Below, one piece after another: positions 7,472 through 58,041 of a stretch of 64,000 bases of DNA (position 1 is its first letter; each line of letters begins with the position of its first letter). The DNA comes from Fragilariopsis cylindrus CCMP1102 (taxonomy: Eukaryota > Bacillariophyta > Bacillariophyceae > Bacillariales > Bacillariaceae). Under the pieces are notes generated by a model that saw only the letters and a list, made by a program, of their open reading frames with translations, was not told the DNA's origin and searched no databases. The position numbers and the translations under genes are program-made. The stretch covers positions 372,001 to 436,000 of the forward strand of contig FMBT01000301.1 in NCBI GenBank assembly GCA_900095095.1, read 5' to 3'.

Positions 7472-8232
7472 GGAACGCTTTTAAAGTGCGGTACAGTAGA
7501 AGTATTATGTTACAGTATGCGTTGATCATGTTTGGGTTTTGCTTGTGTGAAGTCAAAAAAAAGATCCATTTTTCGTAACGTTCTTCGCACGAGAGAGTTT
7601 CAGTTGCGCGACAAAAACAGTATTTTTAGTATTCAGCAAGCAAAGAAAGAAAATTATTTAACGAAAAACTGCAAGCAGTGTCATAAAGAAGAGAAAACGC
7701 GAATACCCTTTACTATTACGACTAGCAGTTACAGTCACGACATCGATACAAGAAGATATTATGACTGGCAATTTCAGTACAACATCTATAAAAAGATTGG
7801 CGATGAGGTACAAACGGGGTCATACTTGAGAACGGTATTTGGTATTTTCCCATAGGTATAGATAAATATAGACATAATACACATAATACAGTATGTCATC
7901 AAATAAATACTGCTCTGGAAGAGCTAAAAAGGCTGCTTGTGCGTTTTCTATGTATTTTTTTATTTCTTTCTGAAAACAAGAAAATCATGTAAATGACATA
8001 CATGACACGACAAGAAGACATAAATTAATAGCAGGTCCGAGCTAATGACGCAAGACGCAAGATAGATACACAGTAGTAGATGGAAAGTAAATGACAGCCA
8101 GTAAACTACATTCCAACAACAACAAGTAAAATTCTATCGGACATACCCGTCGAGATTTTCGATCTTATCTTGACGAAATCAAATCAAAATCAAATCAAAC
8201 TCAAATCAAATCAAAATCACAATCTTTTAATA
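7472..8232. other. Upstream spacer of the coiled-coil gene
   Basis: An open frame of about 107 codons at 7532-7855 has no ATG start and no recognisable domain, so it is not called. The last 60 bases hold a degenerate AAATC/AAAATC tract that probably belongs to the 5' leader of the gene starting at 8233. Confidence 0.5.
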
Positions 8233-11200
8233 ATGGGTGATGTCGATGAAATTGTAGAATTACAAAATGCTGCAAAAGAAAGAACAAAAGAAAAAACGAA
8301 AGAAGAAAAGAAATTAAAAAAAGCTAAAATTCGTATCAAGAAGAAAAAAAAAGAATTGGCGGAAACTGCCCTAAAGAAACAAGAGGAATTGAAATTAAAG
8401 ATTGAAGCTGAACAACAAATTGACAAGGATGCCACTGATGCAGATGCTGCCGAAGAACAACGTGTTAAAGATCACAATGCTGAAATTGATCGTGAGTATA
8501 CTGAAAGATTACAAAAAGAATGTAATAGAGAAGAAGAATATAAAAAATCCAAAGAAGTAGAACAATCCAATGCCTTAAAAGAAACATTATTAGAATATAG
8601 TGAAGAGGATCGGAAATTAGAGTTAGCACGTGAAAAAATTAAAAAAAGACAACAAGAATTAATGGAAAACACAACTATAAATAATCAAGAAATGGAACGT
8701 CAACGATTAATAGATCAAAATATTACCCAGGAGGAAGCAGCACAGGAAGAAGAAGCACGTGTACAATCGGCACAACAAGAAAGTGCAGCACATGAACGTC
8801 TACTGGAAGAAGAACGGCTGGAAATGGAAGAGTATAATCAACAATTGGAAATTAAAAATATTGAACGTTTGAAAGCAATTGCTGAAAGTCGATTAAAAAA
8901 AGAAAAAAAAATGTGGGGAATTCATAAACGTGCGAAGGAACGTGGTGAGGTTTTAAAGGTCGAATCGGAAGAAAAGACCAAAGAATTGGAACAAGAATTA
9001 CAAGTACAAGCCCAGAAGGAGGCACAAATCAAGAAGGACGAAGAGGATCAAGTGATTGTGGAAAAAGAACGATTCGAAGTAGAACGACAACGTATGGAAG
9101 AAGAAGATCGGTTAGCAGAAGAGGAAAAAGAACAAGCCAAGATTGCAGCAGAAGCAAAAGAAAAACAAGCGATTATAGCAGCGGCGGTGGCAAAACAAGA
9201 AGAGGCCGATGAATTAATCAATGCAAAACAAAAAGCCAAACAACGTGCGAAGGAATTACAAGAAGAAGGATTTCAAAAAGCTATGGGAATTAAAGCATTA
9301 GCGGAGAAATTAGAAAAGGTACGGATGGAAGAAGAAGAAATTGCCGAAGCGGAAGAAGAAGAACGAATCGCCGAAGAGGTAGCGGAAAAGGAAAGAGTAG
9401 TTCAGGAACGGGAAGAAATTCGTCGACAGGAGGAAGAAGAGGCTAATAAAGTAGTCGAAAGTGAAGAAGCGAGAATATTCCGATTACGAATGGAAAAAAA
9501 GGAAAGAAAACGAAAAGAAATGGAAGACGCCAAAGCCAGAACGGATCTCAAAGCAAAAGAATTAGAAGAACGATTAGCTAAGAAGACAGCGGAAATTGAA
9601 GCAAAGTTACGTGAACAAGAACGGATACGAAAGGAAAAAGAAGCTGCAAAATTGGCAGAGAAGGAACGGTTAGCAAAAGAAAAGAAGGCAGCAAAAGAAA
9701 AATTACGGCTCGATAAAGAAGCAGAAGCACAGCGTGTACAAGAAGAATTGGAACAAGAACGGTTGGAGATGTTAGCAGAGGACGCTCGATTAAAAGCAGA
9801 AGCAGCAGAGAAATTGCAACGACTTGCTGCAGAGCGTGAAGAACGAATGAATAAAATGAAAGCAAAGGCGGAGGCAAAATTAAAAGCTCGTGAAGAGGAA
9901 TTGAGGAAGGAATTAGAAGCAAAAGAAGAAAAAGAAAGGAAGGAGGCGGAAAAGCAGGCGAAATTAGAGGCCGAACGGCTTGCGAAACAAGCAGAGCTCG
10001 ATGCCAAAGCCGCTGAACGAAAACGTCTGCAGGAAGAAGCTATTGAAAAAGCGAAACAAAAGGAGATAGATGATATGTTGGAGAGAATGCAAGAGCAAGA
10101 GGAAGAGGAACAGCGCCTAAAAGGTAAGTAATAAGCAAATTTAGTTTTGGTACAATCCCAACAAAGAATACATGTGTGATTTGTTTGGTGATGTACGCTG
10201 TGTGATGTATGATGTACGTTGTGTGATGTACGTTGTGAATGTATACTTTTTTAAATTCTAATAAATATAAATTTTTCGTTTGTTGTTTTATGAATTTTTA
10301 GATGCAAAGTTAGCAGCAGCAAAGAAAGCACAAGAGATTAAAGATGAGATGGACCGTAAACAGAAAATTATTGAGGAACGTTTAGCTGAAGCTGCATATA
10401 AAGCTCGTGAAGAAAAAGAAGCACGAGCTGCGAAAGAGGAAGCAGAAAAGGCAAGAAGAATAGCAGAAGATGAAGCAAAAATAGCGCAGATTGCTAGAGA
10501 CAAAGAGCGTCGTGATCAAGATGCAAAGGATGCTCTTGAAGCCAAGAAAGCGGCCAAGGATATGGTAAAGAAGAATAAGGCGAAAAAAGAAGAAGAGGAG
10601 CGATTAGCATCTCTGGCGAGAACCAAGGCAATGATAGAGAAAAAAACTGCAGAATTTGAGGCAGAATCTGAAAAGGCTGCGCAAAAAGCACTTAAGAAAG
10701 CCAAGAAGGAGGAACTCAAACGACAGAAAGAGGAAGAGAAGGCTGCAAGGGAGGCTGAAGAAGAAGCAAAGAGATTATCAGATATGAATAAAGGTCTCGA
10801 AAAGATTGAAGCGGCTACAAAAGAAGCCGCAAGAAAATTAAAAGAACGTCGTTATGTTGATGATAGTGATTCGGACGATGATTCGGACGATGAGATGCGA
10901 CAAATGCAATTGAACCGTGCGAAAGAACTAAAATCGGCAAACATCAAAACATTTGATGATAGTGACATTAACTTTGCGGATGATTGTGAAGTAGATGTTG
11001 ATATTGCAAATGAGAAACTATTAAAGATCGAAGCAAATTTGAAGCAATCGAAAGAAAAAGCAGAGAATAAAGACTATTCTGATGATGATGACGACGATGC
11101 GTCTGATGAGTACGATCACACCGCCGGTTTACATTCTTTTGGTGGAGTTAATGATATCATGGCATTTGATGCAAGTGTCAAATTTGACTTTAGTATGAGC

Positions 11201-11851
11201 GATGGTTTGGATGCGGGTTTGGATGCGAATGATGATTTTGAACAGCAACGACTATTGATAGAAGAAAATTTAAAGAAATCGAAAGAAACTAGAGAGAATA
11301 AAAATTATGCATCCGATGACGAGGAAGTCGATGACATCGCCGCTGCACGTTCTCGTGCAGCGGCAGAGGCATTAACATTCTCTCCCATCCCAAAACAAAA
11401 AGCCACATTCAACGAAAGTTTTCAGATCGATTCTTTGGACGAATATGGAATTGATTTAGGAGAAAACGGCGTCGACGATTTTGAGACAATGCGTTTACAA
11501 ATTGAAGAAGATAGGAAAAAAGCAGTTGAGGAATCTAAATACAAACAATTCGAGGAATCTTGTGCATCAATACAGGCTGATGATATTGGTCGTTCTCATG
11601 CCTATGCTCTTGCTACGGGTGAAGGATTAAAATCCCCTGCACCCACATTCTCATCTCCAAAATTCTCATCTCCAGGATTATCATTATTAGAATCTCCTGG
11701 ATTAGAATCACCTATTATTGAAGAGAAAAAGAAGGTAAAGAAAGATAAGAAGGCGAAGAAGGAGAAAAAAGAAAAGAAGGAAAAGAAAGACAAAAAAGAA
11801 AAGAAAAAAAAGAAAAAGAAAGAAGCAGATTCGTCGGATTCGTCGTCATAA
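8233..11851 (+). CDS. Giant Lys/Glu-rich coiled-coil protein, 2 exons
   Basis: Exons 8233-10123 and 10302-11851 join at a GTAAGT donor and TTTTTAG acceptor to give 1146 residues. The ATG at 8233 (MGDVDEIVEL) is chosen because the frame upstream has only a TTG. Residues 1 to about 860 are an almost uninterrupted charged helix rich in K, E, A, R and Q, of caldesmon/trichohyalin/MAP7 style, predicting one very long coiled coil. The C-terminal third contains three acidic repeats, each an Asp-rich patch followed by an (I/L)xIE(A/E)(N/D) helix, at about 11000, 11240 and 11480. These are followed by a Ser/Pro segment and a pure Lys/Glu tail ending in DSSDSSS. No enzyme motif is visible. A structural or cytoskeletal scaffold is inferred, but the exact family is unknown. 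The intron holds short GTGATGTACGTT repeats. Confidence 0.85.
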
Positions 11852-12282
11852 GACTGGATATTATATTACATCATTTTATATTACATTATATACCCCGACG
11901 TCGACGTCGACGCCTCTTTTGATAATAAATAAATAATATTTGTTGGATAAAAAAGATCGTAATAGTAAAAAATTGCATATGATAATACTGTAGCTGAATA
12001 TTCTTCTACAACTACTACTATTACGTGTAGTACGTGTACAGTGTAGTATCTAGAAGAGTGCAATGGAATATTTAACAGCTAGCTATTATTCTTCTCTTGA
12101 CACTGCAGTGGAACTACTAGCTAGCTACAGTAGTCGCAAAAAAGATATCTTAAAATATACTAGATGTGAAAAGGGGGAAAAAAAACGTCTATGAATACAG
12201 CACAGTAGTTTATTTATTTTTTTACCGATTTTTATGTCTTGATTTATTTCTATCTTTTGATTTTTTCCTATGGACGACTTTG
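11852..12282. other. Spacer between convergent genes
   Basis: The 3' ends of a plus-strand and a minus-strand gene face each other. The spacer has AGCTAGCT words at 12077-12084 and near 12117-12124, GACGTCGACGTCGACG at about 11897, and CTACAGTAG words. No gene is seen. Confidence 0.6.
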
Positions 12283-53204: not shown

Positions 53205-54417
53205 TTAATCATTAAAATATGGATTCGAATTATTTGGATCTTCATAATATATATCATCATCATCATCACTATCCATTTGATTTGTTTGTGATTGTTGTTG
53301 TTGTTGTGCATACCCATACATTCCACCACCACCACCTTGTCCTTGTTGTCCTCCTTGTTGTTGTCTTTGCTGTTGTTGTTGTTTATTACTATAATAGGTC
53401 GAGGAACACCGTACAATCGCTTTCCCCACCCGACCAATCCAATCATCTTTTTCTTGTTCGGTATCCGCATATAATAAATACGTAATTTCTGGTGTGGAGA
53501 TTTCAAACGAATTTCGTTTTCGTGATTTTAAATCTGCAGATTTGACGGTCGTACATAGTGCTAAATCAATCATCCCATGTGGACTGGAATAGTCATTGGA
53601 ACAATAAAATAAATTCGATCCTTTTAATAAAAAATAACGTCGACGCCAATCCTAATATGTAATGTAAGTACGGTAGTTTGATAATATGTTTAAGAAGAAT
53701 AGAAAGAAATTAATTGCGTGAGATAGAGATTTTTTACTTAGAGAAAGAGAGAGAGAGAGAGGATTGACTTGACTTGACTCGACTCGACGCAACAGTAACA
53801 AGACACCGAAGAGGAACCGTTCTGCGAAAGACAAGACAAAGACAAGAATAAAATACAATTGACGAAACAAACACGATTCAAATGAAACGATAAGGTGTAT
53901 ACATATTATTATACTGTAACAGTAACTGTGCACGTACCTTTAACCACATTGATTGTTTTGTTAAGAAACCTTCATATTCTGGTTGATCGGTATCATATAT
54001 AATGTTTGTATTGGGATCCACATAGGGTGGACGTGATAATTGTGTACGATTACTACTACTTGTATTATTTGTATTTGTAGTGCTGCTGAGAGGATTATTC
54101 GTACTATTTGCATTTACTTGGGATTGAGTTTGACGTGGTTGCTGCAGTTGCGGTTGAAAATCAGAAAGTCGTGGTTGTTGTTGTCGTTGTTGTTGCTCCT
54201 GCTGTTGTTGTTGCGGTTGCATTTGGGGCTGCTGCATTTGCGGTTGTTGCATCTGCGGTTGCTGATGTTGTTGCATTTGCGGTTGCTGCTGCTGCTGAGA
54301 TTGCAGTTGCGGTTGCTGTTGTTGCGGTTGTTGCATCTGGGGTTGCTGCTGATATACTTGAGAAGTAGCTTGAGGAGCTTGTGGAGGAGGAGCTCGTGGC
54401 ATAGGAGAAGAATTCAT
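53205..54417 (-). CDS. PH-domain protein with Gln-rich N-terminus, 2 exons
   Basis: Exon 1 is 54417-53938 and exon 2 is 53651-53205, joined by a GTACGT donor and TATTAG acceptor in phase 0, giving 308 residues. Residues 1 to about 110 are Pro/Gln-rich (QMQQPQMQQPQMQ). The pleckstrin-homology domain spans about 145-255. It starts EYEGFLTKQSMWLK, continues across the intron as DWRRRYFLLKGSNLFYC, has a KSRKRNSFEISTPE strand pair, and ends with the invariant-Trp helix EKDDWIGRVGKAIV. Basic residues in the first loop could bind phosphoinositides. The tail is Gln/Gly-rich and ends in DDDDDIYYEDPNNSNPYFND. A membrane-associated adaptor is inferred; the partner is unknown. Confidence 0.9.
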
Positions 54418-54721: not shown

Positions 54722-54724
54722 AGT

Positions 54725-54789
54725 GAGGTTGCCTCAAAGACGTTCGATTGAGTCGTTATTTGACTCAACTTTTATTTGAGGCACGTGCA
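54725..54789 (+). repeat. Left terminal inverted repeat
   Basis: Begins GAGGTTGCCTCAAAGACG and ends TTTGAGGCACGTGCA. It pairs with 55998-56062. Subterminal GAGGCA/TGCCTC words continue inward. Confidence 0.9.
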
Positions 54790-55062
54790 TCAAATTCTTG
54801 TTTTGAATCCGTTAAGAAAAAAATTCAGGCACGTGTCAAGATTGAGGGAAGTAACTGCCTCAATATTTTTAAGAGGTGCCTTAAAAATAAATTCAGGTAA
54901 GCCCGTGCCTCAATTTAAAAATTGAGCTAAGTAGCTGCCTCAAATATATATATGCCAATTTTATCGTTACAAAAATTGATGTCATATTAGCCAATCAAAA
55001 AGTACATGACGACACACTTTTCCCAGGTTCACTTTTTAAATCACTGACACACATACTTGTTA

Positions 55063-55495
55063 CTACATACCGTTAAAATGAACAGCAGAAGCTTTAGCTG
55101 GAGCTTTAGCTGGAGCTTTAGCTGGAGATTCAGTTTCACTTTCAGGATCAAAATCAGGATCTTGGATAGGCGAAGGTATGTCAGCTGCAAATAAGAAAGC
55201 AAAATAATATTAGATGTAGAAAGAAGAATGGAAGAAAGCAAAATATTTATTAGATGTAGAAAGAAGTTATCGACTCACCTCGACGGCGGCCTTGTAGTGC
55301 TTGTGATCTCATGTAATCGGCAGCTTTAGATCTAAATTGAGCACGGAATCTTAAGATTGATATTTTGTTTTCAACAAATACGGGAGACAAATCAAATACA
55401 GGGTCGATTTTATCTGTTGCTAAAGCCTTTGGAGATACAGTTCCATCCTCCCAAAGCTTGGCTAGAGCAGCTGTGCAATGTTTGTTCCACGGCAT
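55063..55495 (-). CDS. Small spliced protein inside the transposon, unknown family
   Basis: Exon 1 is 55495-55279 and exon 2 is 55184-55063, joined by a GTGAGT donor and TTTGCAG acceptor to give 112 residues. Residues 1-73 form an ordered-looking domain: MPWNKHCTAALAKLWEDG, PVFDLSPVFVENK, ILRFRAQFRSKAADYMRSQA. The spacing of Trp, Leu and basic/aromatic residues is reminiscent of small helical DNA-binding folds such as Myb/SANT, but no signature is met. The rest is DIPSPIQDPDFDPESETES and three PAKA repeats. A second possible donor, GTATGT, at the 3' end could extend it by a further exon. It may be a transposon accessory protein or a captured host exon. Confidence 0.6.
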
Positions 55496-55997
55496 GATGA
55501 AAACTTACTTTAGCTGTTCTGAGTAGTAATTATGAGATGTATTGATCATTCAAAAATACGTTCTCCCAAGTGATTATATTAGTACAAGAAACCCAAATTG
55601 GAACTTTGTTTTGGATTGAAAATTTGACCTGCCGAATTCGTTGCACCGGCAATGGCAAAATAAGAGTCGTGTCGGTCTAAACCGCCAAAAATATCCACCA
55701 TTGCTGTTGTGGGAACGGATAGTAGATGGGAACGTTCTTGACAAGACTTGTATATGTGTTGTTGTTGAGGCTGTTATGTATTGCTTTGTAATTTATTTCA
55801 AAAGAATAAGTTCACTTTTTTGTGAGCGAGGCGAGAAAAAAATTGAGGCACGGCCGTTTTATTTTCGTTTTTAATCGCGTAAAAAGTACACACAAAAATA
55901 TTTCAGGCACCTGCCAACTTTGAGGCAGTTACTTACCTTTATTTTTAGGCGAGCTGCCGTAAAAAAAAATTCAGGCAGATACTTAACTCAATTTTTT

Positions 55998-56062
55998 TGC
56001 ACGTGCCTCAAAAAAAAATTGAGTCACAAATTGACTCAATCGAACGTCTTTGAGGCAACCTC
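55998..56062 (-). repeat. Right terminal inverted repeat
   Basis: Reverse complement of 54725-54789 with about six mismatches, all in its inner half. It ends GTCTTTGAGGCAACCTC, followed by AGT. Confidence 0.9.
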
Positions 56063-56733
56063 AGTAGGAATGTAACTCATGACACATTTTTTTCCATTCA
56101 CTAATTGAAAGTTTTACGTCAAGTTCCTGGGACTCAACTACTCGTTACTCGAATTGCAAGTATGTTCGCGCTAGGATTTAATTGAAAATCGGAAACACTA
56201 GTAAAACTATCCATCATTCAATTGTGTGCAACTCTATCAATAAAGAATATCTTTCAAAATTTGAAGGTTCCATCTGAACTATTATTCTACAGAGATTTCA
56301 TATATCAACATCCTGAAGTTTTATATTTCCTTCTGAAATAGGGATCCTGATAGACTAAATTAGCATTGTGAAATGCACATTGAAAAAATCAAGATTGACC
56401 TCAACCGATAGCCCACGCGACACTTTCCGGTGCACGGAGGTAGTACTGAACCACTTCTAAGTGAAGCGCATGCTACTAGCAGCTCGCACCTAATAACGCG
56501 CACCTGAGAGCGCGAAGTTCGTTCTTCTTCTTTGAAAGAGAAGATCTGGAATATTTCACAAATCGCGAAAAATTCTTCTGCTTAGTAGTTCTTCTTCTTC
56601 TTTGAAAGAGAAGATCTGTTACGGTGTATTGTTTTCGGTTTACCCTTTCTTTTGTTCTGTTGGTCCTTTTCGTTTTCTTTTCTTTCCTTTCTAAAGATTA
56701 TTAATAAGTTAGTGATGAGCAATCATCGTCAAG
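56063..56733. other. 5' region of the GT32-like gene
   Basis: No ORF of note. A 27-bp direct repeat (TTCTTCTTCTTTGAAAGAG then AAGATCTG) occurs at 56522-56548 and 56592-56618, 70 bp apart, in the presumed promoter. TTTCCGGTGCACGGAGG near 56426 resembles a word near 49508. Confidence 0.65.
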
Positions 56734-58041
56734 ATGAGGGAAAACGTAGGAAAAAGAAAGAGAAAAAATAAACTTGGTACGATCATCAATGTTAAATTTG
56801 CTGTGATTGTAATGGCAATAATAGCAACGGCAATGTCTTATTACTCGTATTGGACCAAGCATTTCGTTCTTGCATCAGATTCCTTGATTAGTCTAATCAA
56901 AGAATCGGCGATTACTCTTCCACAACAACAACAAGAAGAAGAACAAAAGCAAGCATTGTTGTTGCCATTATTGTCACCACCATCAATAGAAACACCACCA
57001 CACAATCTTATATTTACCTACAAGGACAATATATTGAAAACAAAAGAACCACGTGAGCTATACGACAACGTGGTTCAAACGATACGAATGTATCAAAACG
57101 CATGGGGGATTCAATTGCCGGAGACGGCCTACTCTTCCACCACAGATGATGATTTGCGTTACGATAACATAAGCAATGTTTATTTCTTGACGGACAAGGA
57201 ATGCAAAGAAATTATCAAACAAACGGAACCACGATTGTTGCATCGTTTTGTCAACGAGAAAATAGGGATGTTGCGAGGGGATATATGTCGCATATCGGCA
57301 CTGTATCTATACGGTGGGTATTACATGGATCTGGACCTAAGAGCGATACATCCCTTTCTCATCAACAACGACAACGCTGACCACGACAAAAATAATGACA
57401 ACGACAATTTCAACATTCCTTCCGACAACAACAACAACAACAACAACAACAACAGCACAACTACCACCAATGATACTGCTACCACGAATGCCAAAAACAA
57501 AATCCACAAGAATCTTACGTTTGTTACCGTTAATCAAACAGATTCGAAACAATCGACGGTGTGGGGGGAAGCTAAATTTTTTCAGGCATTTATTGTTAGC
57601 ACACCAAAGCATCCGATTCTGAAAAAAACTTTTGATGTGATGGTCGATTATTACAACAATGATACGAAACGAAATTCTAGAGAGCACATGGGTGTCATTA
57701 CACTGGGCAAAGCATATAACGACCTGAGAGTATCGTTATTAGCATCCACAGCAGCAATCAACACCGAGGACAAAAATAGCAACAATGCAGCTGTTGCTAC
57801 CTCTGTTGACAACAACAAAAATAACAAACTTTTGTTGTATTTTCAAACGTCAAAATTGTTGGGAGAAGCATTAATAACTGACATAAACAAAGAATATTGG
57901 GGTTACTCACTACAAAATGGGATAGGTTGTTGCTGCAATTATGTCGTCCACGATTCGATACAAAAAATACCATATTTCTTTTCGAGATTTCCATCTGCCA
58001 TTAAAAGATCACGGCAAAAGAAGTTGTGTTCCGTAACGTAG
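56734..58041 (+). CDS. GT32-like (OCH1-type) glycosyltransferase with DXD motif
   Basis: Single exon, 435 residues. A basic head (KRKRKNK) and a TM anchor at about 20-36 (VKFAVIVMAIIATAMSYY) give type II Golgi topology. The catalytic core shows WGIQLPETAY, MLRGDICRISALYLYGG and YYMDLDLRAI with the DXD pair D199/D201. This block is the hallmark of the Gly_transf_sug domain (GT32, OCH1-like hexosyltransferases) that uses nucleotide sugars and a divalent metal. A run of nine Asn lies just after the core. The acceptor, probably a protein glycan, is unknown. Confidence 0.85.
   Translation: MRENVGKRKRKNKLGTIINVKFAVIVMAIIATAMSYYSYWTKHFVLASDSLISLIKESAITLPQQQQEEEQKQALLLPLLSPPSIETPPHNLIFTYKDNILKTKEPRELYDNVVQTIRMYQNAWGIQLPETAYSSTTDDDLRYDNISNVYFLTDKECKEIIKQTEPRLLHRFVNEKIGMLRGDICRISALYLYGGYYMDLDLRAIHPFLINNDNADHDKNNDNDNFNIPSDNNNNNNNNNSTTTTNDTATTNAKNKIHKNLTFVTVNQTDSKQSTVWGEAKFFQAFIVSTPKHPILKKTFDVMVDYYNNDTKRNSREHMGVITLGKAYNDLRVSLLASTAAINTEDKNSNNAAVATSVDNNKNNKLLLYFQTSKLLGEALITDINKEYWGYSLQNGIGCCCNYVVHDSIQKIPYFFSRFPSAIKRSRQKKLCSVT

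Follow-up and report, generated by a model that had tools for sequence, protein, structure and literature searches.

A short inverted-repeat element in the diatom Fragilariopsis cylindrus: a probable internally deleted derivative of a larger Harbinger-like transposon

The short element and its setting

The locus lies in a 64,000-nucleotide stretch of the Fragilariopsis cylindrus CCMP1102 genome (the window: the whole stretch that was analysed). It holds a short element with inverted ends and, between them, two exons on the minus strand. The features are given below in window positions; C-numbers here and throughout are contigs of the same genome (67.9 Mb, 818 contigs).

54722-54724, plus strand: left target site duplication, AGT
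54725-56062: whole non-autonomous element, 1,338 bp, with ends as in an 8,079-bp element on C706
54725-54789, plus strand: left terminal inverted repeat, 65 bp; 59 of 65 bases equal to the right one, the first 30 identical
54725-54945: left TGCCT[C/G]AA zone; motif starts at 54730, 54776, 54824, 54856, 54906 and 54936
55063-55184, minus strand: exon 2, including a stop supplied by the proposed deletion join (112 residues, against 405 in C706 and C609)
55076-55079: proposed internal deletion junction; a 4-bp microhomology, AAAT, is present in both parent arms
55185-55278, minus strand: intron, GT..AG; position and phase identical in the C383 relative
55279-55495, minus strand: exon 1 of the truncated accessory gene; C383 relative at 37%
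55840-56062: right TGCCT[C/G]AA zone; motif starts at 55843, 55902, 55920, 55970, 56004 and 56050
55998-56062, minus strand: right terminal inverted repeat, 65 bp
56063-56065, plus strand: right target site duplication, AGT

The initial annotation had described a compact inverted-repeat transposon with ends of about 65 bp, perfect over the outer 30 bp, a probable AGT duplication and dense subterminal motifs on both sides, and each part of this description stands. The repeat finder reports inverted arms of 89 nt at 82%, and TGCCTCAA, read on either strand, occurs nine times within the 1,338 bp (four of these inside the terminal repeats) against twice in the remaining 62,662 bases of the window. 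An empty site with a single AGT, by which the insertion could have been checked, was sought through the genome and none was found for this copy; its right flank enters a dispersed repeat of about 150 bp (56193-56342), which starts some 130 bp right of the element and has at least 39 further matches.

A glutamine-rich frame on the minus strand (53878-54417) starts about 305 bp from the element, which lies upstream of it; on the other side, about 670 bp separate the element from a frame (56734-58041) that has a glycosyltransferase sugar-binding match. Elsewhere in the window, positions 8001-12000 have a strong purine skew (GC skew 0.28 and AT skew 0.50 at 8001-10000), which the few, short A/G-rich tandem arrays found there do not explain.

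The larger relative and the internal deletion

A genome search with the left 279 bases of the element gave at least six matches, two of them the element's own ends; other copies with the same ends, as the initial annotation had proposed to look for, thus exist on C706, C609 and C514. On C706 both ends delimit a segment of 8,079 bp with AGT on each flank. C609 has one such end followed by 5.5 kb of the C706 interior at 98.3%, and then the contig ends, while C514 carries a lone diverged end of the same type, preceded by GGT. At least one short copy with these ends exists, namely the one in the window.

Against C706 the window element splits into two aligned blocks (990 bp, 99.5%; 355 bp, 99.7%), which meet at an AAAT common to both parent arms, and we therefore read it as a deletion derivative. 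As in other MITE-like, non-autonomous derivatives, the ends of a larger element are combined with a duplication of its own, at a site other than that of C706, and with no transposase. Its near-identity to C706 marks it as young and, judged from sequence, shows recent movement. The remark that no transposase is seen holds for the short copy, but the larger relatives carry a transposase gene. A larger relative with a transposase gene, which the initial annotation had proposed to look for, exists on C706, but this gene, located at the end opposite the accessory gene, is broken into two frames with an early stop. No intact transposase between ends of exactly the window type was seen in the genome, the transposase end of the C609 copy being missing.

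A locus on C611, 93% similar to the C706 site, is without the C706 element. Around the insertion point some of the surroundings are missing as well (84 bp by BLAST, 103 bp by alignment), so this empty site is not clean and may reflect either imprecise loss of the element or a separate deletion.

The two-exon gene proposed from the letters has its GT..AG intron and its 112 residues, but it is not a whole gene: it is the truncated front of a 405-residue gene present in C706 and C609. The first 108 or so residues are parental except for one change. Between C706 and C609 the full gene differs by six silent and two replacement changes. Besides the window, exon 1 was found on C706, on C609 and, at 37%, on C383, four places in all, and a profile of exon 1 run over the examined loci was significant in C706, C609, C411 and C383 only; the N-terminal parts of the C706 and C383 proteins match at 1e-8. 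The suggested profile search with the small protein did not reveal a family. The accessory protein has no Pfam match over cut-off and no Myb/SANT match, exon 1 gave a single PDB match at the level of chance (E 0.56), and of four proteins compared with NCBIfam three had no match and the fourth scored 18.4 bits against a cut-off of 450. A single-sequence fold of the window exon 1 was poor (pLDDT 57). As the front part of the accessory protein, the product of 112 residues is in all likelihood a by-product, and it might possibly inhibit transposition.

Sister elements, transposases and a shared MYND gene

C383 carries a more distant relative, an element of 6,899 bp with ATT on both flanks. Its ends differ from those of the window family, and both end families begin GAGGT. 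The inverted arms measure 52 nt at 88%, six nt of which belong to the flank, and TTCCGGTT, on either strand, occurs seven times in the end zones and twice outside the element in the 10-kb locus. Within it lie an accessory gene, whose intron has the position and phase of that in the C706 and window gene, a MYND gene split over two frames, an open transposase frame of 357 residues and two more frames. The C383 and C706 elements share one layout, in which a two-exon accessory gene close to one end faces a transposase gene close to the other. The C383 insertion has an empty counterpart on C164, where the joined flanks match through the junction at 82% with one ATT, about 50 bases to the right of it aligning poorly. 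C383-type ends also bound a short element of 483 bp on C80, whose two flanks differ (AGT and AAT). A 245-residue frame of the C383 element (L027:4549-5286) has a Topoisomerase VI B transducer match at 21.6 bits, the cut-off being 24.

The transposases can be followed in a chain. The C706 pieces match the C383 protein at 3e-45 (33% and 51% identity in the two pieces), and the C383 protein matches those of C678 (2e-34), C489 (5e-28) and C158 (2e-16, 25% identity). The C158 protein has a DDE_Tnp_4 match over the Pfam cut-off (4.2e-8); the C678, C489, C90 and C570 transposases have DDE_Tnp_4 matches below it, and those of C706 and C383 have no Pfam match over it. In an alignment of nine rows the first catalytic D is present in all eight rows that reach it, and the second D and the E in seven of seven. 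Membership of the superfamily was judged by a DDE transposase alignable over the catalytic region at E < 1e-4, and it is through its relatives, from C706 to C383 to C158 to DDE_Tnp_4, that the window family is connected to the PHIS/Harbinger-like transposases. Searching PDB with the transposase alignment gave no match, and among viral contigs the C678 transposase query gave 12 pattern matches, none of them confirmed. On C158 the DDE_Tnp_4 match lies in a 589-residue open frame (L047:3081-4850) that also matches ubiquitin (5e-13); this may be a fusion of a ubiquitin-like domain to a transposase, or the frame may run two genes together.

The groups of this superfamily are divided by their duplications: ANT in Pangu, TWA in PIF/Harbinger and CWG in NuwaI, the last called mainly animal (Han et al. 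2015, PMC4482050). Perfect ANT duplications flank three of the four two-ended copies of our two end families (AGT, AGT and ATT). The fourth is the C80 copy, and with the lone ends on C609 (AAT) and C514 (GGT) included, ANT is found at nine of ten ends. By its duplications and its transposase chain, the window element would thus be filed as a Pangu-like (ANT) Harbinger-type element, and the initial label of an unknown family gives way to that of a deletion derivative whose relatives' transposases lead to DDE_Tnp_4.

More remote cousins carry other duplications. Elements of 6,813 bp on C90 (L057:2280-9092) and 6,915 bp on C570 (L058:315-7229) have ends beginning GAGC, flanked by CAG/CAG and CTG/CTG respectively. 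These cousins show that the target duplication varies between groups of the transposase family within one genome. The two ends of each element agree weakly: 23 and 25 of the outermost 60 bases match without gaps, the perfect run at the tip being 4 and 12. Their assignment to a CWG type, as in NuwaI, is thus a lead. A similar end, GAGAGCCCGCGA, also preceded by CAG, is present on C56 and C678, and its partner end was not found on either contig. No inverted ends were found in 19 kb on C158, and on C489 there was only a weak pair of arms with flanks that do not match. Inverted arms of 156 nt on C90 proved to be tails of an LRR-like gene. Such a tail (L007:5750-6025) is repeated at dozens of places genome-wide, with copies close to the related transposases on C90, C56, C678, C570 and C489. 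On three of these contigs (C90, C56 and C678) the transposase has a frame of 321-393 residues facing it.

The MYND gene lies inside both the C706 and C383 elements, and a third copy sits beside the C158 transposase; as the ends on C158 were not found, only its position next to that transposase places this third copy. In C706 and C158 the MYND gene is a single open frame. DNA identity is 90% between C706 and C383 (726 bp), 86% between C706 and C158 (823 bp) and 93% between C383 and C158 (675 bp, plus 144 bp at 78%). A search with the protein gave 14 matches, the long ones being these three loci, followed by 61-residue stretches on C88 and C164 and then by finger-region matches elsewhere. The copies are thus 86-93% identical in DNA, against 25-51% of residues for their transposases, and this disparity would be explained by exchange between families or, alternatively, by repeated capture from a donor unseen in the assembly. 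We raise tentatively, as a possibility we would not yet bet on, that these diatom transposons carry the MYND-finger gene as a specialised cargo, which passes between element families; its protein might help the transposon, for instance as a chromatin or anti-silencing factor. If confirmed, the sharing would amount to cargo exchange between transposon families in a protist. Our literature search found no paper joining MYND, transposon and diatom; a MYND gene near an LTR element (PMC3562529) is not related to the present case.

Two of the contigs above are partly alike: C164:480000-489000 and C88:714000-723000 are 99% identical over 6.7 kb. The genome also has 27 silicon-transporter (PF03842) matches, all 27 over the family cut-off, from which it was taken to be a diatom's. 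This identity and the pairing of the silicon-transporter matches suggest uncollapsed haplotypes in the assembly.

Alternatives, proposed movement and known systems

Could the long C706 segment simply be two short elements with other DNA between them, the window copy being the original short form? Its LRR- and MYND-like sequences are found elsewhere, its transposase is broken, and both C706 ends are seen together only once, all of which would speak for such a composite. Other evidence makes it very improbable, however: C609 repeats the same interior behind the same end, a single AGT pair flanks the whole segment, C383 has the same layout with its MYND gene inside, C611 is without the entire stretch, and the join in the window shows microhomology. 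Slightly less credible still is a domesticated host gene, caught between old transposon ends and encoding a 112-residue protein with a host function. The frame and its intron are open, and the silent and replacement changes between C706 and C609 speak of selection, but on the element's full gene, not the truncated one. The stop, moreover, is supplied by the deletion join, the four places at which exon 1 was found all lie in the window/C706 transposon or its C383 relative, and the element is too close to C706 to be old. A canonical PIF/Harbinger element, that is a Tourist-type MITE with TWA targets, would account for the DDE_Tnp_4-type relative, the second gene placed tail-to-tail and the internal deletion. 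With duplications of AGT, AGT and ATT instead of TWA, and an accessory protein without a Myb/SANT match in Pfam, we consider it very unlikely and reject it on the sequence of the duplications.

We favour, with a probability of roughly 87%, an internally deleted non-autonomous derivative of an 8.1-kb Harbinger-like (PHIS) transposon with ANT targets, as in the Pangu group. To explain its movement, we propose that the transposase and accessory protein of a related full element would bind TGCCTCAA-type motifs in the ends, and that the bound element would be cut out and then inserted at an ANT site. The deletion itself may have arisen when a full copy was excised and the break faultily repaired, a step with which the microhomology at the join would fit, and the short copy was probably moved in trans by a full element. 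Given that the C706 transposase is broken, the window copy would have left its parent before that damage, or else there would have been an intact source in another place, which could be a copy not seen, the part missing from C609, or a related family.

What was an unplaced repeat is now part of a traced family: beside the short derivative it has a large parent and a distant sister, whose transposase frame is open and for which an empty site was found. This provides a concrete pair for testing the movement of ANT-targeting Harbinger-like elements. Tourist/mPing-type MITEs are moved by a PIF/Harbinger element, and the window element resembles them as an internally deleted derivative that two proteins of a full element would move in trans. 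It is unlike them in its ANT target and in its number of short copies, one with window ends having been found as a lower bound.

The likeness to Pangu elements (PHIS; PMC4482050) lies in the ANT duplications, the DDE transposase and possibly a second ORF without known motif. In our family that ORF is present in C706, C609 and C383, with the Pfam and folding results given above; for Pangu, the Results of the naming paper speak of no known motif and its Discussion of Myb/SANT, and the role of the second gene is stated there as unknown (PMC4482050). Pangu TIRs are usually 11-40 bp and start AG or GG, a wording that describes what is usual and not a definition (PMC4482050), whereas ours are longer, at about 65 bp in the window type, and start GA. 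The full elements here are also larger, 6.9-8.1 kb against an average of about 3.5 kb, and hold extra MYND- and LRR-like sequence. Pangu hosts include one heterokont and two algae (PMC4482050). Unlike the present elements, those of the brown alga Ectocarpus come without mention of MYND in the main text of their study (0 occurrences, PMC12477816). As that study describes them, they are ANT Harbinger elements with two tail-to-tail genes (PMC12477816), and, compared by this description, the diatom elements resemble them in both their duplications and their gene arrangement, in another stramenopile.
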